64,000 nucleotides of DNA from NCBI RefSeq assembly GCF_032854445.1, contig NC_088297.1, forward strand, positions 25,183,127 through 25,247,126, in the 5' to 3' direction. A model generated the notes under the pieces. The model was given only the letters and a program-made list of their open reading frames with translations. It searched no databases and was not told where the DNA came from. A program made the translations under genes and the position numbers. The DNA is from Liolophura sinensis (lineage: Eukaryota > Mollusca > Polyplacophora > Chitonida > Chitonidae). Positions within the stretch are counted from its first letter, which is position 1; each line of letters starts with the position of its first letter. Below are positions 38,086-62,100 of this stretch, piece after piece.

Positions 38086-38194
38086 CTAAGCAAAGTACAT
38101 GACTTTGACAGTGTCAGGGTGAACGGTTACGGCCCGTGCCATGGCTGTCGGAGTGCGATCCTCGCTGTTACCTGACTGATGACTGCCTTCACCG
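38086..38194 (-). CDS. AGO: AGO last coding exon
   Basis: Acceptor tgtccacag. Encodes [20 protein letters not shown] and on to VKVMYFA then TAG. The Ser/Gly-rich segment and MYFA end match the AGO C-terminus. Confidence 0.95.
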
Positions 38195-41100
38195 CTGTGG
38201 ACACCAGTAACAGAACATTTACATGTTAGTCACCCAAAAGATATTGTCAACTCTAAACTTCTATACGAACTATAAATTTTCATTGCATTGGATGAGTCTT
38301 TTGTGGAAATAATTTTTACTCGAGGCATATTTCGTATTTCATAATTATAATTAATTTTTGAGATTGCACAAAAAAAGTATGTATCCATACAGCACAACTT
38401 CCTCAAGCCTTGTCTAATCAGGCAAGCAAATGAACGATTGATCGTATGTTTCTATTCTTACCTGTCATGTTCTTTCTCCACCAGATGGTAACGAGCTCTG
38501 AAAGCTACCAGGTGAGCGTAGTATGCAGGTGCGGGTATGGAGACACTGCGCGTGCAGCGCACATATGTATGGCACAACTGATACGTCAGCGTCTGCAACT
38601 CGTCAGCGTTGAACCGGTTGTCATCCCAGAGGACATGGTAGTGGGAAGGTCGACTCGTCCCCTGAAGCACAAAGGTCAACAGTAAAGGATAACATATTGG
38701 TGTTCACACGGTGAAGAACTTAACAATTAATGTCGAGTAGAGGTTAGGGGGAAAAACAAAAAACAAAAACAAAAAAACACATTATGGTGAAGGTAAAACC
38801 AGGTAGGGCCTCTGGCACAACCCACGCCCACCCTCTGGTTGCTGCAGACCTTCCCACGTACAACAGGAGAGAGGAAGCCAGCATGAGCTGGACAAACTCA
38901 CAGTGACTACATTTGTGGCAGGCTCTCTGGACCCTGAGCTATGTTAACGCCCTAACCACTGGGCCTCAGAGACCCTAAGTAGACATACGACTTACCTGTA
39001 TACCAGCATGACTGCAGAGGTAGAAGTCAAACTCGGTGGGGTGAGTGATGCCCACATCGACGGTGGTGCCTGGTGGGATATTACCACTCCGTCCAATCTG
39101 CAAGTCATCAACAAGATAGCCATTTTAAATATGGGAATAGAAAACTATGCCAAAGTTTAAAAAAAGAAACAAAGAAAATTTCGCTGGCAATTTGTCGAAA
39201 AGAGGCTGCGTAATGTCACATTCAGTTTTCTTATATATATTACTAACCCCATGCATGAAGACACAATGACCTCTACTTTTTAGTTAATGTCTTCTTTTAT
39301 TCATTTATTTATCCTTTGTCAGCAGTATTTTATAACAGTTAAATTAATGCTCCAAAAACCGAAAAATATTCAACTTAATATATCTGAATAACTAAGACTG
39401 ATCAAAAATGAGGCAATCTTTCATCAACTACAGTTTCGACTAATGTATTATCGAAATTCAATCTTGGGCATAACACTCATTTTCTGGATTTTACAGGAAT
39501 ACAAAACACGACCATGTCAATATGACAACCTTCTCAGAAAATGTCAAAAAGGGGGGAAAAAAAAAATCAAATACTTGATTTACCCGAAAGTACCAGATAT
39601 CAAAATGATTTGTTTTTTGTTTTCTGAAAGTTCAGATAATATGAAATGAGATTTTTACCTGATCTTTCTTGTCCGAGCAGAATAGCCTGGTATGGTGTCG
39701 CTTCTGCACTACGATAAAGGTAATCCCTGGCTGGTATCCCACCTCAAGCTTCATGCATGCCTCACGGACAGCCCGCAACTCATGGGTTAGCACCTAACCA
39801 CGGGACACAGCCACAGGTAAATTATCCTCCATACAAACATTACTAACTCAACACACTGACTAACCAAATAATACTAAACATTTTGATTTCTCCGACTTCT
39901 TCACCTCTAATGGTTTATTTTATTTGTGCTTTAGGCTGTTTTTCTGTGCTTGAAGAATATGTCGCTTATGCTAACATGGCAGTACTCACAGTTATGAGAG
40001 GAGGAAATTAATGCACTTGGCTACAAGTACAGGTATTTATTTATTTGACTGGTGTTTTACGACATACTCCAGAATATTTCACTTATGTGACGGAGGCTTG
40101 GTTACAAGTAGATCGACTAAGAAGCTGTTTCCACTACAGATGCAGCATGTCTATTTTTTCATGAATCCCTAACCATCTACATCACTACAATAACATTACA
40201 TTTTGTAACGTCACAAGCTATGCTATGTGTCAATTATACAGACACCATTGTGTTTCTCCACCCACATTTGTTGTCTTCAAAATGTAGGTTAACCAAGTCA
40301 TGCCAACACAAAGAATTTCCAGCTCAAGGAAAATCCTCCAATCCAAAAGGTGACTTACATTAACCTGCTGGAACTGTCCCTCGCTCACACCGTCACGGTA
40401 AAATATGATCCTGGTTGGCTTGAAGCGGGTGGATTTGTAGAATTGGATGAGTAGTTCCCGCACCATGTTGGAAAGCTCAGCTATTATCTCCTGGCGGTGC
40501 TGCTGCACTCTCACGGTGGCTGAGTAGCGACTAGGATGTGCGTCCATACTCCCCACCACCTGTAACCATGACAACAGTAACATGTAAAGATGGTGCTCCG
40601 CTAACCAAAACCCCTCAGTTCTGGGGCTTCAGGGGTCAAAATGTTTGATATTTTCAGCTCTGCAAATTGATGACCTTGACAAAACTGAGGTCATCAAATT
40701 TTATTTAAAGGTATGAAATGTATTAAATTTTATCGATATAGTGTAAAATGATATGAAAAAGAATAAAATACGACAAATAATCATTTACGAGTCTAGTATT
40801 ATAAATATTTGCATAGTAAAAGTCATCTATTAATTTTATGACCTTGACTCATCGTTTTTATTTTGAGGTCTTAAACAAGAGCGAATGACATTTTGACCAC
40901 TGGGCTCACTGCAATGGGGATACCACATGGCATTACACTTACGTGTTTGAAGCCAAAAGTTTGACCTATGACCTGCAGAAGGGTTTACAAACATTTTTAG
41001 TACGAAATTTAATCATATTTTATGTTAGACGCATGAAGTTTTACGGGATTTGGGCCATTCAGACCGTGTATGAAGTTTTAAGAGATTTAGGCCATTTAGA

Positions 41101-44100
41101 CCGTGTATGAAGTTTTAAGAGATTTAGGCCATACAGACCGTGTATGAAGTTTTAAGAGATTTAGGCTATTCAGACCGTGTATGAAGCTTTAAGAGATTTA
41201 GGCTATTCAGACCGTGTATGAAGTTTTAAGAGATTTGGGCCATACAGACCGTGTATGAAGTTTTAAGAGATTTAGGCTATTCAGACCGTGTATGAAGTTT
41301 TAAGAGATTTAGGCCATTCAGACCATGTATGAAGTTTTAAGAGATTTAGGCCATACAGACCGTGTATGAAGTTTTAAGAGATTTAGGCTATTCAGATCAT
41401 GTATGAAGTTTTACAGGAATTGGGCCATTCAGACTGTGTATGAAGTTTTAAGAGATTTGGGCCATACAGACCGTGTATGAAGTTTTAAGAGATTTAGGCC
41501 ATTCAGACCATGTATGAAGTTTTACGGGATCTGGGCCATTCAGACCGTGTATGAAGTTTTAAGAGATTTGGGCCATACAGACCGTGTATGAAGTTTTAAG
41601 AGATTTAGGCTATTCAGACCGTGTATGAAGTTTTAAGAGATTTAGGCCATTCAGACCGTGTATGAAGTTTTAAGAGATTTAGGCCATTCAGACCGTGTAT
41701 GAAGTTTTACAGGATTTGGGCCATTCAGACCGTGTATGAAGTTTTAAGAGATTTAGGCCATTCAGACCGTGTATGAAGTTTTACAGGATTTGGGCCATTC
41801 AGACCGTGTATGAAGTTTTAAGAGATTTAGGCCATTCAGACCGTGTATGAAGTTTTACAGGAATTGGGCCATTCAGACCGTGTATGAAGTTTTAAGAGAT
41901 TTAGGCCATTCAGACCGTGTATGAAGTTTTACAGGATTTAGGCCATTCAGACCGTGTATGAAGTTTTAAGAGATTTAGGCCATTCAGACCGTGTATGAAG
42001 TTTTAAGAGATTTGGGCCATACAGACCGTGTATGAAGTTTTCAGAGATTTAGGCCATACAGACCGTGTATGAAGTTTTAAGAGATTTAGGCCATTCAGAC
42101 CGTGTATGAAGTTTTACAGGATTTGGGCCATTCAGACCGTGTATGAAGTTTTAAGAGATTTAGGCCATTCAGACCGTGTATGAAGTTTTACAGGATTTGG
42201 GCCATTCAGACCGTGTATGAAGTTTTAAGAGATTTAGGCCATCCAGACCGTGTATGAAGTTTTACAGGAATTGGGCCATTCAGACCGTGTATGAAGTTTT
42301 AAGAGATTTAGGCCATTCAGACCGTGTATGAAGTTTTAAGAGATTTAGGCCATCCAGACCGTGTATGAAGTTTTACAGGAATTGGGCCATTCAGACCGTG
42401 TATGAAGTTTTAAGAGATTTAGGCCATTCAGACCGTGTATGAAGTTTTAAGAGATTTAGGCCATACAGACCGTGTATGAAGTTTTAAGAGATTTAGGCTA
42501 TTCAGACCATGTATGAAGTTTTAAGAGATTTAGGCCATTCAGACCGTGTATGAAGTTTTACGGGATTTGGGCCATTCAGACCATGTATGAAGTTTTAAGA
42601 GATTTAGGCCATTCAGACCGTGTATGAAGTTTTAAGAGATTTAGGCCATTCAGACCGTGTATGAAGTTTTAAGAGATTTAGGCCATCCAGACCGTGTATG
42701 AGGTTTTACAGGAATTGGGCCATTCAGACCGTGTATGAAGTTTTAAGAGATTTAGGCCATTCAGACCGTGTATGAAGTTTTAAGAGATTTAGGCCATACA
42801 GACCGTGTATGAAGTTTTACAGGAATTGGGCCATTCAGACTGTGTATGACGTTTTACAGGAATTGGGCAATTCAGACTGTGTATGACGTTTTACGATGTA
42901 CGCAGTTTGGCTGGACCTGGGCCCAGTTGTGTGATGTGTTTGCTGACGAGAGATTTTTATAGATAAATCGTAAGTGTTACTGAAAATATGAATCCATTTT
43001 GTTGTTTGTGGAAACATACAGCAGCAATGGAGGGTTTGGCTTTGTCACCAGCTGGAGGATGTGTGACATCAGCACCGAGGAAAATGACGGGTTCACGGAA
43101 GACAGCTGGCCTGCAAAACAGAGAATAAATACGAGAGATTTTAGATCAATGGAAGGAAAATAACGGGTTGAAGGACGAGAGTTGGCTTGGGAAGAGACAG
43201 ATGAGAATATGCATCAACTGTTAACACTTACCGGATGCTTGGAAGCAGGATATTGTTGATTCCACCCAGTTTGACATTGATCTGAGGCACAGATTGGACA
43301 GCGTCTGCGGAGAGGTCTTGTTCACGTTTTTCGCTTGTACACACTGTGTTGCCAAACCAAAACATATGTCACCCACTCTCTTCACTTCAGCTAGAATTAT
43401 AAAGGATATGTGTGATTAGTTGTAGATTAATCATTTTATTTATCAGATTGGTGCTATATGCAATACTCAAGAATATTTTTCTTATGGGACGACAACCAGC
43501 AATATTGTGGGACAAAACTGTGCAGAGGCCTGGGTAAACCCACGACCATGCATTGGCACTTTGCAGCCAGACCTTCACAAGTACGAACAAAGAGGAATTA
43601 TTTTTGTTGTACGCTCGAATATATCACTCATCCTACATCGACCTGTGGAGGAAACCGCATTAAACAGGTGACCACAAAAGTTCAGGGCTTGAACAGCTGG
43701 TCAAACTTCAACACTAACATAGGCATTTGTAACATAACGTGATCTTTTAAACACTGATCAAACAACACTAAAACCTCCAATACCCCACACTTCACTAAGG
43801 ACAATAAACAAAAAAAGAAATCTCAAATTAACTATGGTCTCTTTATATGCCATTTCATTTAATCATTAGAAAAGAGTTTTTTTTAGAACATGCTTTTGAT
43901 CTCTTTATACAGGTAGAAATCTTGAAGTAAGAAAATTACTGTCTCCATATCGTTAAATGAAAAAGTAATATTATAGCAACAGTCTCATGAAGCAATGTAC
44001 CAGTACTCACCATAAACTGGTGTCTTGCCAGGCAGCACGACCACAATGAGTTGCAGCCCTTGATAGGTATTCTTCAGATAACGAAACATGGGCTCCACTT

Positions 44101-47100
44101 GGTCTGGCCCCGTGGCGTACTTACAGAAACAGGGCTGACCCATTATTGGCATCCCAGCATCATTAGAAATCCTCTGCAACTGCTGAGTGAAATTTCTGAA
44201 AAAGTAATAACAAAAGATTAATAATACAAGTAACTTTGCATTCTAATGAATTGCAAAGTGTGATGTATTGGACAGATTGCTGATTTATTCACTTAGCGGC
44301 CATACTGAAGATTTCTGGGAAAAACAAATCAATCAAATTTTCATTATCATTTTAGATTAGTCTAATTAATCACTGTTCACAAAATATCAGCCTCGTCTCT
44401 GCATGTGTTCATCAAGTTTCTAATATTTACAAAGAGGGCCGCATTTTAACTTTTTTTTTTAAACTTTAGAATCCTTGTAAGCCAATAAATGGTACAGGTA
44501 CAGATCTGATATTTGCGGAAAGGTACTAATTTGAGTCCTCTACATAATTGTAGAAAATTTGATTGAATTAGCAAATATGGCCAAAGCTGTCAACAAACTT
44601 CATGTACTTAAAAGGCCAAAGATGAGCAAAAAAAGGTGGGCAATGGATATTACAGGATGATGTTGATTACAGTAGAACCTCAGTCCTAGACCTTCCAAAC
44701 TGCATATCGATGCTTTTATGTTCCCTGAATCCATTCCTATCATTTAATATGGAAGATAAACAATACAATTAGGTGATCAAACAAGAGAGACACTGTTCAT
44801 CTCGTCACTCACAATCAGCTGGCCCACCTGCATGGGGCATCGTGTCGCTAGCTGGTAGGCCTATCGCTTGACTTGGCTATAAAAAATAATATTATACCTA
44901 AATTCTTCACGGGTATTACCATAACTCCATTAATGGCCAATTTGTGTCAGGCAAACCAGACGAAACGTGTCTGCGTCATCTACAGTGGCCCGTTATGTGA
45001 GCAAAAATAGGTCATCTTGTCGCCTAGTTGCTATGCTGTTCACGCTTTTTCAGACGCTAATATAACTCTGATATCTTTCAAAATATTTACTGTGAAATTG
45101 TTTTACTTGCATGATTTTCAGGGTGCTAATTAAGAGGTGTATACGCAGGGGTTTATAGATTCAGTCATACGATGGCTTCAGGAATGCACACAGTGGGCGG
45201 GGCCGAATGCATGGACTTGTCACTGCTTTGCAAGGCTTTTCAATACATAATCCCGGCAGATCTTTACTGTATGACGTCGCCCGACCAGGGCTTCACGGCC
45301 GTCAGTGGAACTAGTTAAAATAATATTTTGAAAATACAGTTTACATACTAACACAGCAAAATAATGTGCCCTAGGCATGAGTATGAAAATATAAGCACTG
45401 GGGTTCTCCTTTGTGGTTGATTAAAATACCTCCCTGTGCTTGTTTTTTCATATCTCACCTGAGAGCATCCTCGCGGACGGTCCTCTGCGGCGCGAAGCAG
45501 GCGATGGCCCATACGCGGATCTCGATTCCGCTGTAGAACTGCTTGCCCCTCATGTCCCACACGCCCTGGTTAGGCACAGCCTGGGCCTTGGTCTGGTGCG
45601 ATGGGGACAGTGACAAGAATTAGAAAACAGCAGAAATAATAGCCCCGTCATCGAGACATCGTCAATACGCCACACCCCCCACCTCAAAACTTCCACCACT
45701 CACTCAACAGAATAGATAGAGACCCTATGGAGACGTCTGTACACCACTCACCCCATCTCACATTTCTATTTATTTATTTGATTGGTGTTTTTATGCCATA
45801 CTCTGTATTCTACTTATACACAGCCTGACCATCCGCAGGTTGCTGCCAGACCTACCCATGTATGGCCGGACAAGAAGCCAGCATAAGTTGTCTCAGGCTT
45901 CTAAGACTCGGTCACTGCTGGACAGAGCGATATTTTTCACAGTATTACTTCTTTACCCTGTTGTTTATATCTTTGCTACAGCTAACTAATCTTTCCTCAG
46001 ACAGAAAATAATTTTGCCCTACTCTTGATTGATTTAGTGAACTTTGTAACCACACAATACATTCTTGCCCTAGAAATACATATTTTCAAAATTGCAGATA
46101 AAACACTTCCCATAATGGAGGAAACTTTCTAAATGTGCAGCAAACATCATTACACATTATCATTTGTTGACAAATTTTTGGGTTTCAATTTTGTCAGAAA
46201 GTGATATTCCAATCCTGCTGAAAAATCTTGCCTTGTAAAGAGTACACACTGGATAAACCTCTCTCAGGACATCCACTGCACTTAATACACTTGGATCAAT
46301 TTGCTATTCTAAATCTCCTGCTTTTTTCTAAAGTGGGATCATTTTAGTCAATTAAAGTAGCTGTTCATAGCTATCACTTGAATTACTTGGAATACAACAA
46401 CAGTTTCAGAGTGAAAGATTGCTACAATTTGATTTTTCATTATTATTTCATCTCGAGGGAGTCTTTATTTAACCTGAAGAATACTTGTCATCTTTATGAG
46501 TGGGGTTACCGTGGAGTTTCATATGTGAAAGGAAAAAACCGCACTCATAGCAAATCACCACCGTTTATAGGAATATCCAAAATTCTGATTTAAAACAGTA
46601 ATCCATATTCATTCAACTTCAACACATTTTCACATCAGCAACAGCCAGATGTTTTCAGTAAAAAAAAAGACTGGATTTGTTGTATGGCATGTGTGAAGTG
46701 CAATTGTGATGAGTCACGAGTCACCTTTTCTAAAATGTTAATCTGTGTGAATTTGTCACCACTTGGCAGAAACTGTCAAAATAAGGCAGGGTTTTCCTGT
46801 CACCCACCAGCTGATAACTGAATAGTAATCATCATACAGCTTTCACCGTGTGGGTCGAATACAGGTAAATCTTTCTTCCAATAATTCCTTATGTTTCACA
46901 CATAACAAATAGCACTCTATACTTTACTGAAAACATCTGGATGCATACATATAAATGTGGTCAAATTAATTCATCAACATTTCATTTAAAGCAAAAGCAC
47001 AATCATAACAAAGGATCTTATTTAAAAAAAAAAAACATTTATAAAATGACCATCACCAAAAAGTAGAACCACTTCTTGACTAATAAGCAGAATAGCAAGC

Positions 47101-50100
47101 TTCAAGTGCCAAATTTTAAGCAGAGAATAATAAAATTGCCAATAAGTGTACTTAAAGTGTTAAGTATAGTCAATTTAAGAAGAATACAAGCACAGAATAG
47201 AACTATAAATAGCTGAATACAAGTAATATAATACTGAATAAAAAAAACTTTCTCCAGCTTGGGGGTCACAAATAGACCAATCAAAGAATAGGAAAAAAAT
47301 GGCTGCCATTCTTACGGCCAGGATGAGCAGAAGCATGTCACGATGGCTCTCACTGGCCAATAACACTGCAGGAAAGCTGTATGAAAGAGCAGTTTCTATT
47401 GGACAAAAAGGGAACAGCTGGCAAATTTGGGCCATACAGGATAAAAAACATTCTCACATGATGTGCCATATATTTTTTTCTCTTTTTTTTTTTGACATCG
47501 GTATCCAAAATTCATGGAGAGAAAACATAGTTACCATGGATACCGCATTCTTACCCTGCCTCCATATTGAATTTTGGGTGCATTGAGTACCCGCCCTTGT
47601 ACCTCTGTCATCTGACTACTTATACTGATGCCGAACGTTTGCAGGAAGGGGTCCCCATTGAAATTAGCTTTCCGAACCTGGTGTCAAAAGTGGGTTATAA
47701 CAACAGAATCAGAAGTAAGTCTCTGGAATCATTGACTTTGGGCAGCCTTTTGGGGCGAGGGATGTTTTGGCACACCCAAAACAAAAAACCCGGACAACTT
47801 TGTGGGATCTAGTACACGACCAGCCCTCTCCGCTTTCTGGGAGATTCTAGTCGCATGGGGAAAAACAGGTGAAGAAAAAAAAGATTAATAATAATAATAA
47901 TACGGATGAGAGTGATTAGTGACCAATCAAAACAGAGAAACAAAATGTAATCGTAGCCTACCCGGCCGCCATATTGCAGCTTCGGTGCCGTCAGCACTCG
48001 GCCGCGAACTTCAGTCATCTTGTTAGAAACATTGATCCCAAAAGTTTGCAGATATGGGTCATTGTTGAAGTCAGCTTTGGTGACCTAGTGCATTGAAGTT
48101 TTGTTAGATGAGAGACGATTGGATAACAGCACCACAGCTCGCACCAATGAACACTCTCCTTGCTTCCTCTTATATTCTGTTGTAAGACTTTGCAGTATAA
48201 CTTACAAGCACTTTGAATCATTCCCTGACCTCTGTTTGACTTTGAAACAAATTTGACCTTGAACTCAACCTTGAAATTTGGGTAAATATGGGATGCATGA
48301 ACTAAGTTGTAAATTGAGATCTAGTTTTCCTTTCAGATATCTTCTTTTTCCTATGTTTTGACTCGCACGGTGAAACAACTTTTATTACCAACTGTACAAA
48401 ATTACAACATTACAAAAAGTAATGTTTTGAGCCCCAAAATTAACCACATGACTGCATCTGAAGACGGTGCATCAGAAATGACCTTTCAAATACAAGATGT
48501 CAAAATAATTATAACCATCTGGGGTGGAAGGTGAAAATGTCAGTAAAGAAGTGGATCAAAGGAGGATAAAAGCTATGGTGATCAATTTTAAAATATACAA
48601 CAGGGAAATTTTTAGATTTGATGAATGTAATAAATATTCCTATTCACATCAAATTTCAAAAGCAACATTTAAATCTACATTTCATTTTCTGACCTCATAA
48701 TTTTGAGGACTTATTGTAATCTTAATCTGAATCTTTACTTACTTTTTTCTGATTAATGACGTACATTGATTTTGCACCAATATCACATTGGTAAAGTTTG
48801 TTATAAAACACCTTTAAAATATCAAGGTCAAAATGGTGAAAGGTCAAGGTCAAGCAGAGGTCGTTTCATGGGCAAATGGTATCCCACAATGCCACACTCA
48901 ATCAGCCTATCAGCATCATTCAACAGCTACTCTTGTATAGTCTGACTGCTGAGTTGATTCAAACCACCATCTTCACATCATATGTTCAGTAAAAACACAA
49001 AAAAGAAGTCATTTCCCATGACAAGCTTTTCCGGAGCAGTATTTTCAGATTTTTTTTTTCCATCACAGAAATACCATTGTCATAACAGCTACAGCGTTGA
49101 TTTTTTTCTAAGCAGACCAGTTTTTCATGGCATATATTTTTTATATCAATAAAGACTGTTTACATCAAAATGATCTTGGTTCTCTAATGTTTTCAGAGGA
49201 CAATCAACAAGCGAAAAAAAATTTTCATAGATAGTCAAAATTTCCCAAACAATTCCAATATTTTCTTGCCTTGGGAATTAGCATTACAAATATTGACGTC
49301 TCACTATGACAAAAAGTTACCTCCAAAATTTTAATGTTTTTACAACACAAGTCCTGTTCTTGAGGAAGTTCAAGCTTTGAGCTACTCAGAATACAGCCAC
49401 GAATAGTTTTTTAGTTTAGAGCATTAGTCAGTCTGGCTGGCAGTCACAATGGTAAATTTGGATGAAAAAATTCAATGATTTCATAATGTGACAATCACAC
49501 TCCTGTAAGGTCAAAAACCGAAGCGGCAATTTTGAAGTCATTGTTTCAAATTACATGGTGACCTGCTGGCATTTGATAAGGAGAAAACTTTTACAACCAG
49601 TGCCAAAATTTTGTTCATGTACTCTTGTTTGGCATAATATAAACTCCAGAAGAGCTACATCATTGGTTAATGTCAACAACAACAACACTTATCAATTTAT
49701 TACACATTACCAACAGGATAACAATAAAATGTTACTTTTCAACTGAAAACAGATTCTTTATGAAGTTTTGTGGTGGTAGCCTTCGTTCCATACAGTTCAC
49801 AGACAAACATGTCAAATATCTAGACACTTCTTAAACTTAATCATATTTCTAGAATGGCCCACCAATGGTGTTTTACTTCTGTAATGACTACATATAAAGG
49901 TATGTATCCTTTTCTTTCTTTGTTAATAATACACTTTTTATTTCTTCTTTGAAATTAAAAAATTTTGACTTAAAAATTTAGGAGGAATCGTGTTGCTATT
50001 CAAATCTTCAGGACTATAAACTCCCGAAAAGGACAAGTATCAAAAAGATCTGAAGAAAATCAACAGAAATTTTCTTCAATGTTTTAAATTTCGCGGGACA

Positions 50101-53100
50101 TTTAAAGCCGGGATACAATATACCACCATAAAGCTGTCCACCATTCAAACATCATGGTTTTTACACAACATACACATGTTAATTGAAGAGAGTAAAACAA
50201 ACAATATCATGATAAGACAATGTCAACCAAGTACAGCATGAATCTCAATGAAAATCAGTGAGGAATTTTTTCCGCATCAATGTACCGGTATCCATATATT
50301 TTGTAATGAGCTTTATATGGTTTGAAGGAATATGAAGTATACACCTGAATGACTTCAAAATTCAATACAATTAATTTCACCAATGTAAATTTGCACATTA
50401 ACAAAAGATGGCTTAAACGAATAATCAATATATATTTTAAGATGAAACGACGACAGACTAGGCTGTTAAAAATACTGTATGGGTCACAAGAATTCTTAGA
50501 AAAAGATTTTATACAATTTTAAACCAGCCTAGTTTTCCAGTAGTAGAGGGGTCAAACTTCCCCATCAAAAGAAAGCAAATCTTGTACGTTAATGTCAAGC
50601 AGAGACCCTTTATGTCTCTCTGACAGACAAATTTAGATTATGTCCTTTCATTGCTGATCTTCACTCAGAGGGATCTCTGCTGTTCCAGGCGCTACAAGAT
50701 TTACCTCTCTTGTCAAAGGTGGGATTGACCTCTGTACTACTGTATTTAATCAGTAATCCCATAACAAATACTTCACAAAAAACCCACCAGGTTGTTGATT
50801 TCTCTTTCCCGATCAGGTGCGGATCTCGCCGTTGCCTGAAAAAGATCATTTGATTGTGTTAGTAAATCTGCCAAAGCTTCTATAACAACCTTAGTACTAT
50901 CTCTTGTTAATGAACTAGGGATGAATACTAAATCTGATCCTAACTACTACTAACTACTTAAATTGTTTAAACGGCAATTACAATTTAAGTATTTATTTCT
51001 TCAGCTACAGAAAATTTGGAAAACGTAACTTTGGCAACTAGTGATGCACATTTTTCTACAAATAATTCACACAAACTGTAACTTGTACAATTAGTACTTT
51101 TCAAACAACCACAACATGTATCGAGCTCACTGATAAAGGTTTGATAACTTCTACACCACTATTTGCACTACTGAGCTTCCTAGTACCTACAGAATAAATG
51201 ATATCTGTTTTACATTTCAAATTATTGGAGGCACTGTTGTTTGGGTTTCTTTTTTTTCTTTCAGACAAAAACATGCAGCATATCTTCCAAGCTTTTACAT
51301 AACCATTACAATTCATGCAACCAGTTTTTGAAAATTCTGAACACAAAAATTCTTTGAACAAAAACCAAACAAGCTCGTGTTCTTCTAACCTTTTTCAACA
51401 TAAGTTGTTCTTCCAAAAATATCTTTTCACTTTATTGGCTATCAGAGCTAATACTAAATCCAGTCACAAGTTATTTTCTGCTCAATGGATCACTTACTGG
51501 AGTGAGACTCTGAACTGTCAAAAGACAAAGCCTCTATTTCTGAATGCTGATATAACCGTTTTCATTATAACCGATAACAACCTTTACATGAACACTGATA
51601 TACACAAAGGCTAGAGTACAGTCAGTAAATATAAAGAAAATCTAGGTGCTAAACCTAAGGGTCGGTTAAATATCTAACACGCAGCTTGTTATAGCAAAGC
51701 ACAGAAGACAGAAAATAAGATTAAAGAACAGACAACACAATGAAAAGCTTAAAGTTCAAACTTTTCCAGGGCAAAAGCTTATATATGAAAGAGCACTTGT
51801 GCCCTATAAGGTTTTAAAATGAAACTTAAGAGTAAGGATCAGTCAAGTCAGTTAGTCAGGTCAAAATTTGTACGGTACACTGCCTCGTATACTTATCTGT
51901 TACACATTGTCAATGGAAAAAGAACAATTGCGAAGCAAAAGCCATATAATTTCCTTCTCTTTATCATAAGTAATACTGAAAGAGTATTAGAAATGCTTTG
52001 TCATTACTTAACTATAAATGTAACAGCATCAGAAAAATTCCTTTGTCACTTAGTCTTCTCTAGATCTGCTAAAAGCACCATCTGAACTATACTGTGCCCC
52101 TTCAACTAAACAGCAGCAGTCCTACTGGTTAATTTTGTGCGCTTACATTTTTTAATAAGCTCTTTCTATGATTCTAATTCCAGAATTAAGGCTCAATGAA
52201 ATGCAAGAGTAACTTCTGTCCCTCAAGTATGTTATGGCAAGGGCGTAGCAGGCTTGTGGAGACAAGATGCCTATGAACATCAGCTTTGGTTCCTTCCCTT
52301 ATCTCTTACAGTTTGACCTTGATGAAGGTCATAACATTTATTTTACTGTCTTTGCTCGCCTCTGAGTGTTTGACCATGGTAAATGTCACTGCCTGACTGA
52401 CTGGATTTTCTAATCATAATTCTTTATTTTCTTCCCTAGCCTCTTACAGTTTGACCTTGATGAAGGTCATAACATTTATTCTGAGTGTTTGACCATGGTA
52501 AATGTCACTGTCTCATTGACTGGATTTTCTAATCATAATTCTTTATTTTCTTCCCTAGCCTCTTATGGTTTGACCTTGATGAAGGTCATAACATTTATTC
52601 TGAGTGTTTGACCATGGTAAATGTCACTGCCTGATTGACTGGATTTTCTAATCATAATTCTTTATTTTCTTCCCTAGCCTCTTACAGTTTGACCTTGATG
52701 AAGGTCATAACATTTATTCTGAGTGTTTGACCATGGTAAATGTCACCACCTGATTGACTGGATTTTCTAATCATAATTCTTTATTTTCTTCCCTAGCCTC
52801 TTACAGTTTGACCTTGATCAAGGTCATCACAAACCAATACTGATTCTCTTTCATAACCTTTTTATATTTGACTTTGCTCAATCATCATACCATCAACTTG
52901 GTTTTCCAACCATTATTCTTGATTTTTGTCCCCTTCACTGTTCTCAAATGTTGAACTTTAAATTTGACCTTGGTCAAGGTCATCACCAACATTAGCTTTC
53001 CAGTCATAATTCTTCATCCATGGCCATTATTTTTTTTTGCTTTACCTCAAAGTTTAATCTTGCTAAAGGTCATCACCAGACAGATTTGGGTTTCAAACCA

Positions 53101-56100
53101 AAATTCCTGAGCTTTGTTTTCTTGTCTAAACATCCTGAACATTGACCTTCGTGAAGGTTCCTTAACACATAAAAATTGGTTTTCCTGTCATATTTCTTGA
53201 GATTTGCTTTTTCCTCTAATCTCTGAAGTTGCAAGGTTAAAGTCATCACCAGGTAATGTTTGGGTGTGCAATCAGACTTTTGTATATTTTTACACTTAAG
53301 GTACAATTTTTGCGCACCTACTGTAATTTCAGAAAACAGACAATCACATGCTTTTTTTCTGAAATGATCCGTTTTAGATTCCAGGTGTAGATATTTTTGC
53401 CTGAGATATGTATAGCTTGTTTTCAGTTTGGGACAAATTTCAACGTCTTGAATCTTATGTGCAAATCAGTTACGATCCAAACAACACAGATACATATATT
53501 TCACAGTACAACACCAACAACATCTCCAGCACTCCAATCAAACAAGCTAAAAGTAGGTCAGGGTGGAGAGGTCAAGGTTACAAGGTCATTTGTGGGATGG
53601 GAAGAGAGTCAGGGTCGGGAAGCAAAGGTGTGAAGGGGAGATAATTCTAAACAAATCTGGAGACCAAAATTAAACAGAGGCAGAGGAAATTAAAGCTGAA
53701 GATTTTCAATGGACACATAAGTCCTTCCAGCTAAGTTTTATTTAGTTGAAAACATGAAAATTGGAATCCTTATTGTTCGCAAGATTTACAAGAAATGTTT
53801 GAGACGCTGACACAGTTTAGAATGGGGTTAATAGCATAACAAAACATTCTATACTGTACAAAAAACTAATATGTACATTGACACAGGTTAGCATATTTTA
53901 CAACAAATGACAAACATGCATCATTCATCTCCGTTTTATTTTGGTTTGACCTTTTCCAGGATTCCGACACAGAAACATGAAAAAGACCCAAGAATTATCT
54001 CCCTTGGCAACGAACATGACAATGATAAAACCAAGAATAGTGCCTCCACCACACATGCAAACGTAGCCTTAACCAGTAACGTATTTGGGAAACCTTGATC
54101 ATAGTAGATGTCTGCATGTCCGTTAGTTTCTTAATGCATCGCTGGCCCCCTACAATGTTACAGACCTAAAACAAGAAGAAGGGAGACAAATTGTGATACA
54201 ATTACAATATCGAGAGACCAGCAGGGAATCAATGAATGAATGCGTAAAAATTTAAACAGCTTTGATAACAGATGTATGTAAATATGCTGGTTTGAGGCTT
54301 AACATCATAGTTAACAAGTTTTCAGTCACATGACGACAAGGAGTCATCAGGTGTATGTGTGTGCATGCTGTGTCTTGTGGTAGATCGAGTCTACACCACA
54401 GCCACTGAAGTATCATGCCAAAAACACCAGACATGATACACAACAAGTCATGTTACACTGACACCAGGGTCAACCAGTCCTATTTCCTTGCTTTAAACTC
54501 TCCGTGCTGAGCGCCATGCGAGGTAGCAACAAGTGCCATTTTTAGTTTTTGTTACGGCTCAAACCAGGTTTGATCCCGGGTCTCCAAAATTCGAGGCAGA
54601 CGCTCTAACCATTAGGCCACCAAAGTGGTTCCGAGACCAGAAACGAGATGAAGGGAGAAAACAATTCATCATTGGAGGTATTAATTTACTTATCTGATTG
54701 TTGTTTGCCACCAAACCCAAGAATTCAACATAATATGGAAAATGTGCTCCAAGTAGATATAATTCAGCTAGTCCTCATATAATTTTAAACAACATATTTT
54801 AATAGTTTAATCACTCAAACTCTGGAGTTTTCCATTCCCCTGAAAAAGTTGGATGTATGGAAAATGAGTTCAGAAAATAGTTGAAAATTGTCAGCCCAGC
54901 TGAGTTTACCAAGAGTCTTTCAAAAATAAACTTCTTAAAATATCAGTAATTTTTTTGGCCAAGTATTTGTTGTCGACCAGAGGTATTTCCGCCTCTAACA
55001 CAATCATGTATGGACCAGTACTTACTTCTAATGGTAGATATGTGTGTTTCTGTTCTTGACCCACTTGTAGACATGGCAAGTGTGGGTACCTGGAATGGAC
55101 AAAAGACACAAAACACGGTTTGCTCAGATCAAAAGTATAACACAAAACACAGTTTGCTCACAACAGAAGAATGACACAAACCACAGTTTGCTCAGAACAG
55201 AAGTATGACACAAAACAGTTTGCTCAGAACAGAAGTATGACACAAAACAGTTTACTCAGGACAGAAGTATGACACAAACCAGTTTGCTCAGGACAGAAGT
55301 ATGACACAAACCAGTTTGCTCAGAACAGAAGTATGACACAAAACAGTTTGCTCAGGACAGAAGCATGACACAAACCACAGTTTGCTCACAGCAGAAGTAT
55401 GACACAAACCACAGTTTGCTCAGAACAGAAGCATGACACAAACCACAGTTTGCTCACAACAGAAGTATGACACAAAACAGTTTACTCAGGACAGAAGTAT
55501 GACACAAACCACAGTTTGCTCACAACAGAAGTATGACACAAAACAGTTTACTCAGGACAGAAGTATGACACAAACACAGTTTACTCAGGACAGAAGTATG
55601 ACACAAACACAGTTTGCTCACAGCAGAAGAATATCGGCACTTTTTCCCAAACTTCACTGTGTTTGTTGATTTATTTCCTTATTCGATTGGTGTTTTATGC
55701 TGCACTCAAGGCTATTTCACTTATACATCAGGGGCCAGCATTATGGTGGGAGGAAACCAGGTTGATTTACTTGATTTACTTGATTGCCCACGAAAGAATT
55801 TTTAATTTATATGATGATAGCCCATGGCAATGGAGAGCCCAGCGTAAAGTCCCCAGACAAAGCAAAACTAGCTAGATCTGGATTTGAACCTGCGGCCTCA
55901 GTGGCCTGGGGCTGATCAATTGTGCAAAGATTAGCACATTATGCCACTGAGCCAGCGAGTGTCAAACAACAATGTTCGCTTTGTGGGTCAGTGGGTTTTT
56001 ACTTACTGTAACTTCATCTTGTAACGCTCCAGGAAGTATCTTGCAACTGTACACTCCACGGTCTGCCCCGAATCCAGCTGAAGTGGGAACCTGGAGAGTG

Positions 56101-59100
56101 TGGGGGGGAAAAAGACATGGTTGAGTTGATGAGAGGGTGAAGGATGGTGGAGGGGGTTGATTCAGTCGGGCAAGCACATGAAGAACAAGTCAACATGACT
56201 GGACAAGGATCAATCAATTTGATTTCCAGCCAATGAGCTTGACTACGAGATTCCCTTGAACCTATCACACGTCCAATTTTGTTCTATGTCAGCTTATCTC
56301 CTGAGGATAGACAGACGCTGATGAGAACAGTAAAACCTGGAGGCTGTGAGGTAAAACCAGAAACATGGTATGAACTTACGACTGCGTCTGTGCTGGCCTT
56401 CTGGTTACGTTGCAGACACGATACTTTCGCTTCATTGTACCGCAATGGGTTATCTCCACTTTCAGTCCTACAATCAAATTAAAAACTTCACTTAAAATTA
56501 TTATTCCCACTGTCACTACTAGTCAAAATGGTTTTCAATATAACATGAGACAAATAGTCTCAAGGGGAATTATTTCAACACAGCACACAAACCAAACGTA
56601 AACAAGACCGCTACAAAAAAAAAAGTCAAATCCTTAAATAAAACACACAAAGAGATGAACTCGAAAAAATAATTCAGTGAAAACTTAACAGAGATGACAT
56701 TTAACGCAGATCTCAGTGCTGAGAGCAAGTTGCATTGTAGCGCACATTAATTAACAGTGGTCAGAACAATTTCCAATCCATTTTCAGCAGATGTGAAGAT
56801 CCTGGCATGGACCGTAAATTAATGAAAAATCTTTTGAAAATAATCCTTTCAAAACCCAAGTTTTCAAGGTCATCCCCTTCCCACAGACCAGATTTTAAGG
56901 TCATTTCTTCAAAAGATCACTTTATCATCATTCTCAAGAAAATTGGTTTTCTGGTCACTTCGTCAATCCGTTTTTAACGACATTCCGTCAAAGAGAGTTT
57001 TCAAGCAAATCTCTGAAAGGTTCAGTTTAAGGACCTTCTCACAAAAGGTCATTTTTCAATAAGCAAATACAAGAAGGTCCACACTAAAACTGGGAAGCAA
57101 TGTGTGAACATAGCTAAAATAAAAATCAAATTTATAAAGAAAACATTTCTTTATGCTGAACTTATTCATTCTAGGCAAGGAAAAAGCAAGGCAGAAGGAA
57201 GCTTTCCAAACAGGTCCACTGCAAAGCACAAAATGCAAGCAAAGCAGAAACAAGAGGCAAAGTAAAACAAGCCAGTCAGGGTAATACAACAACTAGGTGA
57301 GACTACATGCATGCTCGATTGCACCGGTGTTCTGTTTCGCTCGTACCAACATAAAGCGAACAGTGCAATGAAACCACAGCATTCATTTTACCAGTTGTTA
57401 CACTAAATGCTTTATAACCTAATCAATTTCTCCTAAACGACTCGGGTCAATACATCTGGTCGATCCCTACTGAGGACAATATCAATGGTCAGGTGTATGG
57501 GTTGAGCAAAAATCATCTTAAAAGCCAAATGGCAATTAAACCAGGCTTTTTATCAGCTAATTCATCAACAGACAGTTTGGCAGAAATGTGGCAACTGTTT
57601 ATACGAGATCAGAACTCCATCACTGCTAGGGGCATCGTTTTTTTTTTCTTCGCTTCCTCTTTTTTGTTCGACATTTGTAAAGACATAGATTTCCCAGCAT
57701 TTTGAAGATATAGCACAATAATAGAGTATGACATGAGGTTACCAAATCCACCCAGGCATGCACTGAAGCCACCTGGTGGAGAGAAAGAGTGAGCACTCTC
57801 ATTCACAATTCTGTTGCTTTTCTCTTTCGCGCACGAATACAATCCAATCTCTAAGCCATAACACTTCTTCTATACTTCAACAACAATACTGTAATCAGCC
57901 AACATGCACTTTACAGATACTCTTCACAGGAATTGATGTAGATCTATCAGAGATAGCTCCGCAATCACTGAGCCAAGCAAATTAACTATCCACTTTCTAC
58001 AGCCAATATGGTTATTTGATACAGTAAGCAAGAACAATTTGTGTAACAGCTACTACTCCACAACTGTGCTTATGAAAAAAACTAATCCATCTACACAGAC
58101 ATCTTTGTGAAAGAAAGAGGGCATAGCCCATTCATTTTAGATGAAATGTCCCTAGAGCCATATAAAAAAAGATGGAATCGCGCCTTCAGCACTAATGGGT
58201 ATTCACAGCAGACATTTTCCATTCTGGAATCGACATCACACAAGTTTGAGTGATTAACACCATTTGTTTTGATTAGTCTTTTTCGTCCTCACCCAGAAAG
58301 TTTCACTTGTAAGAATGTTACCATTTTGCAATGAGAAAAAAATGTTGAAAAAAAGATAATCATATTTTGATCTTCACAAACTTAATATGTCAATATTTCC
58401 TCATCACATTTCTTAGGACTACCATTTACCCATGGCTTGCTGTATAGAAGACTTAAAATGCCTTTAAAACACTTTCAAAATCTTGTTTTTTTTTAAAGCG
58501 CATTAGTTCACAACTCTCTGCATTACTTCTTGAAAGCCAGAGGGAGGTTATGAATCCAAAAAAAAAATATATACACCTGCTATTGTTAACACTATCACAG
58601 GATGTGTCGCAAACTGAGACAGGCCTCTTAACTCAGACGGTTTTTCATCACAAGCGCATTTGTTAAATCAAAATAAGAACAAAAGTCAAAGGTTAAGTTC
58701 TCTGATATGTGATGATTTTGGAGTTAAATTCTTAAGATATTTTTCTGAGCAAAATATCTTCGCAAATGTCTTCCATGCCTGCATAGTTTATCTTTACTGA
58801 TTTCCGCCATTTTTATCCTTCACGTTGCCAAGCTGACGTCCCCGGTACATCTCCTGAACACGTGTACATACAAAAAGAATTACAAGACTCTTGCAGTCTA
58901 CGATCTACAGAGTTGTGTCCCCTTGGGAGAATACTAGCATTGTGTAACAACTGTCCAATGAATGAGCATAGGTATGGAGAGATATAGAGTGCAGGGTTAT
59001 CAGTTTGCTGAGGGAAAGAGAGGGACTTTGTCAGCCATGTTGTGACACCGACGGCCACGACAAATACACCGACAACAACGTCCTCGTTGCTGCCCTCTCT

Positions 59101-62100
59101 CTCGCTCGTCAAGGATGTAATAAGCCATGAAAAAGTCAAGAAACATTCCTACTAACCTGATGAACAATTCTGATCGGAGTATGCCGAACCTATGATCAAA
59201 AAACAGCGTATTAGTCAGGGAGGGTCCTCGAGACGAAGTCTGTGCGCCTGCCCGCCCGCCCACACAGTCAAGTAACGAGGCGGTCAAATGAACGGACAAA
59301 CCAAAGAGAACCTCAAGCATGTGGTGGAATTAAGGCTTTCAGCTTAACAATGGCAAAATCCAAACCTATCACTGGAAATATTTGTTGTTGTTTGTTGTTA
59401 ACATGAAGACTGCAATCCAATTTCATCTTAGTTTTCTATTTCAAAAGCTTATCTTAAGCTTTCATAGTCAGGAAAAAAAAATAAAAATTTCCTTGGTCAC
59501 CATGGCAACATACATTTTTTTTTTTGGATTCTGTTTTTTTTTTTTTGTTCAAAACATACATTTTATGAGTGAGTGATGAAGTATTTATGGGTGTATTTTG
59601 AACATACGGTGTTTTGCTGATCATGGAATAGAAGGTACAGAAAGAAAACATTTTAGATGTTAACAATTCAAATAATCCTTCAGTGCAAGCTATTTTTCTT
59701 TTAGCAGATATGGATTAACAAAGCAATATAAAGCAGGTTAAGACACAATGAAATTTCATGAAATCTCATCAAAACAATATTACACGGGAAATCCATGATT
59801 TTCCTCGTTCTCCTTTAATCCGTGTACTGAAGGTTAAATTTGTTTGGTAATTTAACATTTTGCAGAATTGCATGACAAGGGCTTATCTGATAAAATAATG
59901 GTGTGGAGTTGTATGTTAACTGAAAGTCCCATGTATTTATCATTTCTGTCTTAAGTCAGCATTGCGCAACAAGAAACCTTGTTGATTTGAGCTCTCCCTC
60001 CCCCCAACCCTCCCCTCACAGAGTTAGCCAGATGCTGTTCTCTACAGAGCTGAAGAATCCACATGAATAACGGTACAAGTGTACTTGCCACAAAAAGCCT
60101 TTTGTACAACTTTGAATGAATTTTTCTTGCATGATTACAGCAAATCATAGCATGTACCTTCTGGAAAATGTCAAATGCCTTTTGAATAACATCAAACGCC
60201 TTTTGAACAATATGAAATCTCTCTGGCACATCGACGAGAGAGGCAAAACCACTGGCTAGTATTCAAAGTCTTACTTATTATTGAAATCAAATACTGATCT
60301 CTCCTTAGATCATCTGGGTAACACTGACACGACTTTTAAAATCAAAATTAAAACCAATGCCCTAAATTTTATGTGTATAATAAAAAATCCACAGTTAATA
60401 GTCCTTTAATCTTACATCAGAGAAAAACACCAAGATTTTGTACAAATCAAACACAGCGTCACATGGCTTATTACATCCTTACTGCTTCATTTGCATAAAT
60501 CAACAAAAATAAAGGATAAATAAAAAAGTAACAGGATTACATATTTCCACTGGAGGATTTCTAACAAGATAACATGTTAATGGTACACTGAACAATGAAC
60601 GAACGTTGTGTGAAAATCTATCGTCAAAAAATCCATGACTGCCATGTGTCCACTTCCATACACCCTAGATCAATGTCTCCAAAATACTTAATAAAATTTA
60701 CACTCATAAGATTCAGAAAATCTGAACAACAAAGTTTCAAAAGCTGTTTTACACACCAAAGATTGGCCAAATCTCAATTTTCCCTCAAATATGGTCAAGA
60801 AAACTTTCAAATCCACCAAAAAATCTCTACCAACATTTTTTTGAGTTTAATAACTTGCCCCACACATTTACCACACCAGATCTTGATCCACCTTTCCACT
60901 TGAAAGTATTCAACTATTTGAATAACACGAACAACATATTAGTTTTTTGTTTTTAGGATAAGGGAGAAATTTTTGATCATGAGCACTGACCTTTGATTTC
61001 TTTCGTGAATTTCACCCGCTGAGAATCGGTAAGCGGCCGTTTCTGCTCATGTACATCACGGATATCCAGCACTTCACACATAAACTCGATCACAGGCTGA
61101 GCTTTATAAAACGCAGTCGCAGACACTGTGGACAGAAAGTAACAGTTTACACAAGATTTAGGTAGCTGAAGAGAGGCTGAGACAAAATATTATGTTGGTG
61201 CAAAAAGTGGAACCGACTTACAAAATGGCTGGATAGACAACCGTTTTTAGACTCAATAATACAATGTGGACACAGCTGTGTATCAATGCACATTTCATTC
61301 TAAAGTCGGATGATTCTACACATTTACACACTGCCATGCTTATTTTTTAGTTTAATGCCATTTCACAACAGTTAATGTAAATTGGTGGTGGAAGCCAGAG
61401 AAAGCCACCACACTTTGTCAGGTACCTAAAAAGCCTTCTCACCTGACATACCCAGGAGAAAGCCATCACACTTTGTCAGGTATCTAACGAGCCTTCTTGT
61501 GGGAGCCAGAGAAAGCCACCACACTTTGTCAGGTACCTAACAAGCCTTCTCACCTGACATACCCAGGAGAAAGCCATCACACTTTGTCAGGTACCTAACG
61601 AGCCTTCTTGTGGGAGCCAACAGAAAGCCACCACACCTTGTCAGGTACCTAACGAGCCTTCTCACCTAACCACCCAGAAGAAAGCCACCACACTTTGTCA
61701 GGTACCTAAAGAGCCTTCTCACCTGACATACCCAGGAGAAAGCCATCACACTTTGTCAGGTATCTAACGAGCCTTCTTGTGGGAGCCAGCAGAAAGCCAC
61801 CACACTTTGTCAGGTACCTAACGAACCTTCTCACCTAACACACCCAGGAGAAAGCCACCACACTTTGTCCGGTACCTAACAAGCCTTCTGGTGGAAGCCA
61901 GAGAAAGCCACCACACTTTGTCAGGTACCTAACGAGCCTTCTCACCTAACATACCCAGGAGAAAGCCACCACACTTTGTCCAGTGCCTAACAAGCCTTCT
62001 GGTGGAAGCCAGAGAAAGCCACCACACTTTGTCAGGTACCTAATGAGCCTTCTGTCCTGACACACCCAGGAAAAAGCTATCACATTAGCCAGGTGCTCAA

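Follow-up and report, generated by a model that had tools for sequence, protein, structure and literature searches.

A tandem pair of alternative L2-linker exons in a chiton Argonaute gene and a possible splicing-coded charge choice at the counterpart of human AGO2 S387

Results

The AGO gene and its two L2 exons

The window, i.e., the whole 64,000-nt stretch of Liolophura sinensis DNA analyzed here, contains part of an Argonaute (AGO) gene (Table 1), and a further coding exon upstream was located in the 10 kb spanning the end of the window. The translated exons hold the Argonaute slicer residues D, E, D, and H. With the L2 exon described below masked, the protein shares 84–89% identity with the listed AGO rows of molluscs. 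In a tree of the masked protein (a short search that took in no PIWI rows), the gene stands beside gastropods plus bivalves, with SH-aLRT values of 88 and 80 at two forks. By these features the gene is assigned to the AGO clade, not to PIWI. A Piwi-domain search of the genome, which scored the best candidates only, gave nine matches, all of them in this AGO gene and in one gene on C10. The C10 matches compared are 25–48% identical to this AGO. As the C10 gene is probably a PIWI gene, AGO is apparently single-copy and the only AGO-clade gene detected in the animal.

Table 1 Features of the AGO gene and of its exon pair (positions within the window)
Feature	Position	Strand	Details
AGO gene, part within the window	38086..64000	minus	continues past the window end
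Upstream flanking exon	50788..50835	minus	16 residues, ends INNL, donor CTG/gtgggt
Exon copy A	48084-47962	minus	41 codons, D-type; exon model and genome-wide search
Codon 5 of A	48070..48072	minus	Asp (GAC), counterpart of human AGO2 S387
Intron between A and B	47961-47678	minus	284 nt, GT-AG
Exon copy B	47677-47555	minus	41 codons, N-type; exon model and genome-wide search
Codon 5 of B	47663..47665	minus	Asn (AAT), counterpart of human AGO2 S387
Downstream flanking exon	45459..45592	minus	begins TKAQAV, acceptor accag/ACC

The slot between INNL (exon end 50788) and TKAQAV (exon start 45592) is occupied by two homologous exons, A and B, each 123 nt long, open and of phase 0-0, with AG before and GT after it. 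The preliminary description of this DNA had reported two such exons 284 nt apart, identical at 30 of 41 residues, and our coordinates and translation agree with it; 82 of the 123 nucleotides are identical. The residue exchanges had been described as mostly N/S, K/Q, R/Q, and T/N. Those exchanges do occur, but D/N, T/R, N/G, and V/I are found as well. The 41 nucleotide differences are distributed over codon positions 1, 2, and 3 as 8, 8, and 25, and because of this excess at third positions (binomial p = 2.6e-4), both copies look constrained. The dN between A and B is 0.21, and dS was not estimable.

When the whole 609-Mb genome was searched with copy A, copy B was matched at E = 1.1e-14, which excludes chance similarity. 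No third copy of the exon was found in the whole genome with A and B as queries at E values up to 10. In the window, tblastn with an AGO probe found the L2 exon twice and no second copy of any other AGO exon, chance matches with E of at least 0.7 aside. Use of the acceptor CACCAG/ACC at 45592 might leave either TKAQ or, with an extra Q, QTKAQ, and Ylistrum isoforms exist both with and without that Q.

Another AGO exon, 43389-43232 (minus strand), contains a one-base frame break near 43280, in a conserved NLCLKINVKLGG stretch. The HiFi coverage reported for the published Liolophura japonica assembly is 14x (PMC11068029), and the break may be either an assembly error at this coverage or a disabled allele. 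A 37-nt tandem repeat of about 50 copies lies at 41033-42893 inside an AGO intron, and other minisatellite arrays occupy 52361-52831, 55105-55629, 61398-62110, and 63324-63691. By eye, phrases of a SINE-like family are common to 45930-45760, 43700-43430, 40070-40030, and 38980-38800, and some of these stretches end in variants of '...caccaatcaaataaataaata'.

Splice sites and possible control of the choice

Both copies had been credited with good splice sites. The AG and GT are indeed present at both, but A is the weaker of the two in its donor and its acceptor tract. The donor scores, based on a donor frequency table, are 6.46 for A and 8.52 for B, and 3 of the 17 donors scored in the gene are lower than that of A. 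Of the 21 positions before the acceptor of A, 10 are pyrimidines, the lowest value among the 14 acceptors scored. The weaker donor and the poorest pyrimidine tract suggest that B is the default exon and A the regulated one, in which case the use of A would depend on an activator or on the lifting of repression. A U-rich stretch lies directly after A. A TIA-like factor acting via a U-rich stretch can help a weak donor, and the stretch could aid the donor of A in this way.

For simple steric exclusion, a spacing of 284 nt appears too large. Stretches after A (47948-47922) and after B (47301-47267) are 70–71% complementary to a stretch at 45760-45795, and docking/selector RNA pairing was considered on this basis. 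We do not put it forward, because the target at 45760-45795 looks by eye like a SINE tail and shuffled sequences scored as low. In the duplex test over the introns, the strongest pairings were equalled by 1/15, 6/15, and 1/15 shuffles, and no enforcing RNA structure was found. UGCAUG, GCAUG, UGUGUG, and CUCUCU were absent from the four flanks scanned. These flanks contain one ACUAAU, 42 nt after the donor of A, which we do not claim as a regulatory motif.

Isoforms of relatives and exclusive use of the exons

Adjacent homologous exons of the same length and phase are the usual signature of mutually exclusive splicing. The reading frame of the chiton pair does not enforce exclusivity; A and B together (41 + 41 codons) remain in frame. 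The relatives were collected by three region searches of proteins (the best 120 of 657, 120 of 661, and 120 of 425), and 225 proteins were compared. The isoforms of the relatives are database models.

The proposal that one gene makes two isoforms is borne out in relatives: in Aplysia, Babylonia, and Lineus (a nemertean), the isoform models are identical outside the exon and have 13–15 differences inside it. X1 and X2 of Aplysia are each 932 residues long, and their 15 differences all fall within residues 450-481, in the exon; X4 and X5 show the same pattern. Every one of the 13 residue differences of Babylonia X1/X2, X3/X4, and X6/X7, and of the 14 of Lineus X7/X6 and X9/X11, is in the exon. 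Ylistrum X3 and X2 have 13 differences in the L2 exon and 17 more at residues 149-199.

Looking for the pair in related genomes had been recommended, and counterparts of A and B are present in snails and bivalves. These counterparts also bear on the idea that one of the chiton copies is a nonfunctional relic or was duplicated by the assembly. The frame broken by one base near 43280 in the same gene and the 14x HiFi coverage could be read in its favor, but 41 of the 123 nucleotides differ, mostly at third positions, both copies are open with splice sites, and both have counterparts in relatives. We consider this explanation extremely unlikely, and its assembly-duplicate form is already refuted.

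Both homologous copies stand in tandem in 3 of the 225 proteins (Batillaria, Physella X8, and Priapulus X3). Their in-frame models would fit a gene in which both exons are usually joined, giving Argonaute an 82-residue segment. Against this, the isoforms of Aplysia, Babylonia, Ylistrum, and Lineus whose segment was inspected hold a single copy, and one-copy open reading frames also occur on short contigs: P0020 (958 aa, longest contig 3184 nt) and P0027 (905 aa, 3329 nt) with B, and P0092 (881 aa, 3009 nt) with A. Contigs of ~3 kb leave little room for introns, which suggests that these three are spliced transcripts with a single copy. Moreover, each of the 30 solved sequences matched has a single aligned stretch. 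Habitual double inclusion is therefore very unlikely. The earlier proposal of mutually exclusive splicing agrees with the one-copy isoforms of Aplysia, Babylonia, and Lineus but not with the models of Physella, Batillaria, and Priapulus that hold both copies; given the pair and the swap, it is the best reading of A and B, and we regard it as very probable. Sequence and the isoform models of relatives strongly support the existence of the pair, the swap, and the age discussed below.

Several other candidates were set aside. The repeat in Tupaia AGO4 is an exact duplicate, and the vertebrate entries P0003 and P0005, with two AGO stretches each, were read as two genes run together. Lineus X2 derives from a second, divergent AGO sequence; it was dropped from the pair count and kept in the exon tree. 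A search for a deuterostome pair from the hemichordate P0052 gave no second exon type for that species, the best 120 of 425 being mostly arthropods.

Residues that distinguish the two copies

In the alignment, the exon corresponds to residues 383-423 of human AGO2, and exon residue 5 to S387. The segment lies in the L2 linker, and 41 residues are swapped. Four positions fully separate mollusc A from mollusc B, with labels set partly by eye: 2 (R in B), 5 (D in A and N in B), 8 (N/K/Q/H in A and A/G/S in B), and 19 (V in A and I in B). Eight same-gene pairs were available (window, Aplysia, Physella, Babylonia, Batillaria, Ylistrum, Lineus, and Priapulus). In all eight, position 5 is D in one copy, and the other copy has N (seven pairs) or Q (one pair). 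It is the sole exon position with an acid in exactly one copy of every pair; positions 2, 8, and 18 likewise differ in all eight.

Six of these pairs go back to a common origin. In a scatter test over 28 variable positions, at least one position differed in all eight pairs in 1821 of 20,000 random draws (four such positions were observed). With the window, Lineus, and Priapulus alone, this was the case in 19,666 of 20,000 draws (five observed). The contrast at position 5 is thus not statistically special by itself. In both Lineus and Priapulus, the copy that lacks D is acidic at position 8 and so may not be "null." Animals represented by one exon type have either D (most arthropods shown) or N (flatworms and the ostracod Cyprideis).

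Loss of the residue corresponding to Y393 was rejected as the main switch: chiton B has F and A has Y, but the B copies of Aplysia, Babylonia, and Ylistrum retain Y. An AlphaFold model of Babylonia X2 had a mean pLDDT of 43.7 and was not used.

Age and origin of the pair

The exons compared were 14 of type A and 15 of type B from molluscs, including the copies of the window. Mean identities over the 41 residues are 30.4 (A–A), 33.0 (B–B), and 26.0 (A–B). The A of the window shares on average 31.0 of 41 residues with the other A exons and 27.9 with the other B exons; its B shares 32.0 with the other B and 26.9 with the other A exons. For species with one exon shown, the labels were assigned visually, from sequences in which residue 5 could be seen. 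When residue 5 was left out, 26 of 27 rows were still nearer the right window copy, with one tie, but just 18 of 27 were when the four separating positions (2, 5, 8, and 19) were removed, which indicates that those four carry much of the A/B signal.

In an unrooted exon tree of 41 columns, the B side holds 15/15 mollusc B exons with those of Tubulanus (a nemertean), a leech, a bryozoan, and two flatworms; the A side holds 14/14 mollusc A exons with an annelid exon, the Lineus exons, both Priapulus exons, arthropods, and deuterostomes. The support for this split is weak (77/84), and neither A nor B as one clade was demonstrated or rejected (p-AU 0.36 and 0.23). Among molluscs, the pair is probably ancient. 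Since it has members in chiton, gastropod, and bivalve, it most simply predates the split of these classes.

Beyond the molluscs, the origin of the pairs is evenly balanced between one old pair and separate duplications in molluscs, nemerteans, and priapulids that converged. The D-type copy comes first in the window, Batillaria, and Physella, but the N-type does in Priapulus. This reversed order, with both Lineus and both Priapulus copies on the A side, speaks for independent duplications in these two animals, and other AGO exons have been duplicated in molluscs too (Ylistrum and Mytilus). On the other hand, within Mollusca A clusters with A and B with B, and the N-type exons of Tubulanus, the leech, the bryozoan, and the flatworms fall on the B side, if with weak support. 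Since the leech, flatworms, and bryozoan (P0065, P0040, P0117, and P0039) have an N-type exon and most arthropods shown and the annelid Ridgeia a D-type, the two types may have been sorted by loss among lineages.

Discussion

S387 of human AGO2 is reported as an Akt3 site that controls the binding of LIMD1 and GW182 (TNRC6) (PMC5507773, PMC5983126). In human cells, binding of LIMD1, TNRC6A, and DDX6 is reduced by S387A and rescued by S387E, and AGO3 binds without Akt through the adjacent glutamate E390 (PMC5507773). In rat neurons, S387D binds GW182 much more than the wild type does, and it strengthened repression of one reporter and not of another (PMC5983126). In the natural A sequence (KADFN), the corresponding residue is that of this laboratory mutant. 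The preliminary description had guessed that the isoforms might differ in loading or partner binding. Our analysis lends no support to the former; the latter can be made specific, in that the exon holds the site that in humans governs LIMD1/TNRC6 binding.

Here, we propose how the pair may work, based on the D/N contrast and the human and rat S387 mutants. Each mRNA would carry one of the two exons, the two resulting Argonautes would be alike except for 41 residues in the L2 linker, and the exon choice would set the charge at the S387 position. With Asp, A would mimic the Akt3-phosphorylated form, binding Ajuba/LIMD1 and GW182 constitutively and favoring miRNA repression. With Asn, B would mimic the unphosphorylated form, an Argonaute less tied to GW182 and free, for example, for slicing. 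As an overall explanation of the locus, a tandem-duplicated, mutually exclusive pair that offers a choice of charge at an S387-like position is likely. That the swap has an S387-like functional role is possible but somewhat doubtful. Slightly more tentative is the full proposal of an ancient splicing-coded S387 phospho-switch, in which exon choice yields a charged, GW182-engaging form or an uncharged one in molluscs, and in nemerteans and priapulids either in parallel or by common descent.

The exclusive splicing could be real while its function lies elsewhere, in another contact tuned by positions 2, 8, and 19 or in tissue expression only. Positions 2, 8, and 18 also differ in all eight pairs, 2, 8, and 19 fully separate the mollusc copies, and one-type animals with D or N suggest that either residue is viable alone. 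Position 5, however, is alone in its consistent contrast between acid and no acid, and it falls on an L2 site whose regulatory role is well studied (PMC5507773, PMC5983126). We give a function apart from S387 slightly less than an even chance.

SNAP25 exon 5, U2AF1 exons 3/Ab, OGDH 4a/4b, and insect Dscam are described as homologous exons used one per transcript, so that a single segment is exchanged in a protein that is the same elsewhere, as proposed here; none of the genes in these descriptions is an Argonaute. The chiton pair also differs from them in that inclusion of both exons keeps the frame and RNA pairing gave no outstanding docking structure. Another parallel is the human AGO2 switch, with the same linker and residue, where an acid promotes LIMD1/GW182 binding (PMC5507773, PMC5983126). 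AGO3 with E390 is a vertebrate built-in phospho-mimic that needs no Akt signal (PMC5507773). The charge contrast is coded by alternative exons of one gene in the chiton, whereas vertebrates use a kinase or a paralogue.

Argonaute isoforms of a single gene are known from shrimp, where Ago1A/B/C differ by a 27-residue PIWI insert and a 9-nt insert (PMC3510085), and from Drosophila, where a short AGO2 isoform lacks the glutamine-rich N-terminal domain (PMC3002974). As described in these sources, neither involves a homologous exon swap. Same-length homologous swaps like that of the chiton, but of other exons, occur in the AGO of Ylistrum (residues 149-199) and Mytilus (456-498). Ylistrum balloti P0159 has 17 differences from P0037 and P0023 in the swap at residues 149-199. 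In Mytilus californianus (P0054/P0086) and M. coruscus (P0050/P0080), the swapped pair directly follows the L2 exon (SKSQAM... versus IKSAAV...), and the M. coruscus model P0051 holds parts of both versions. Searched by tblastn, the window contains no second copy of either the Ylistrum-type or the Mytilus-type exon.

Among the titles and abstract openings listed from the open-access literature, none describes an Argonaute exon pair; subscription journals lay mostly outside this scope, and an earlier description is possible. The passages concerned with shrimp Ago1, Biomphalaria AGO2, and slug AGO make no mention of one. What appears new here is the residue-5 contrast, D versus N or Q at the S387 position, between swappable exons.

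The diversity of Argonautes is commonly attributed to gene duplication and phosphorylation. With a conserved swap, splicing would retune a small-RNA effector itself across several classes of molluscs, among them Aplysia, in which neural plasticity is studied as a model. In practice, one of the two forms would escape any work that regards mollusc AGO as a single protein. The role of S387 would become testable in nature, with animals that carry the "phosphomimic" and the "null" as natural isoforms. If the proposal is true, splicing does in molluscs what Akt and the AGO paralogues do in vertebrates.
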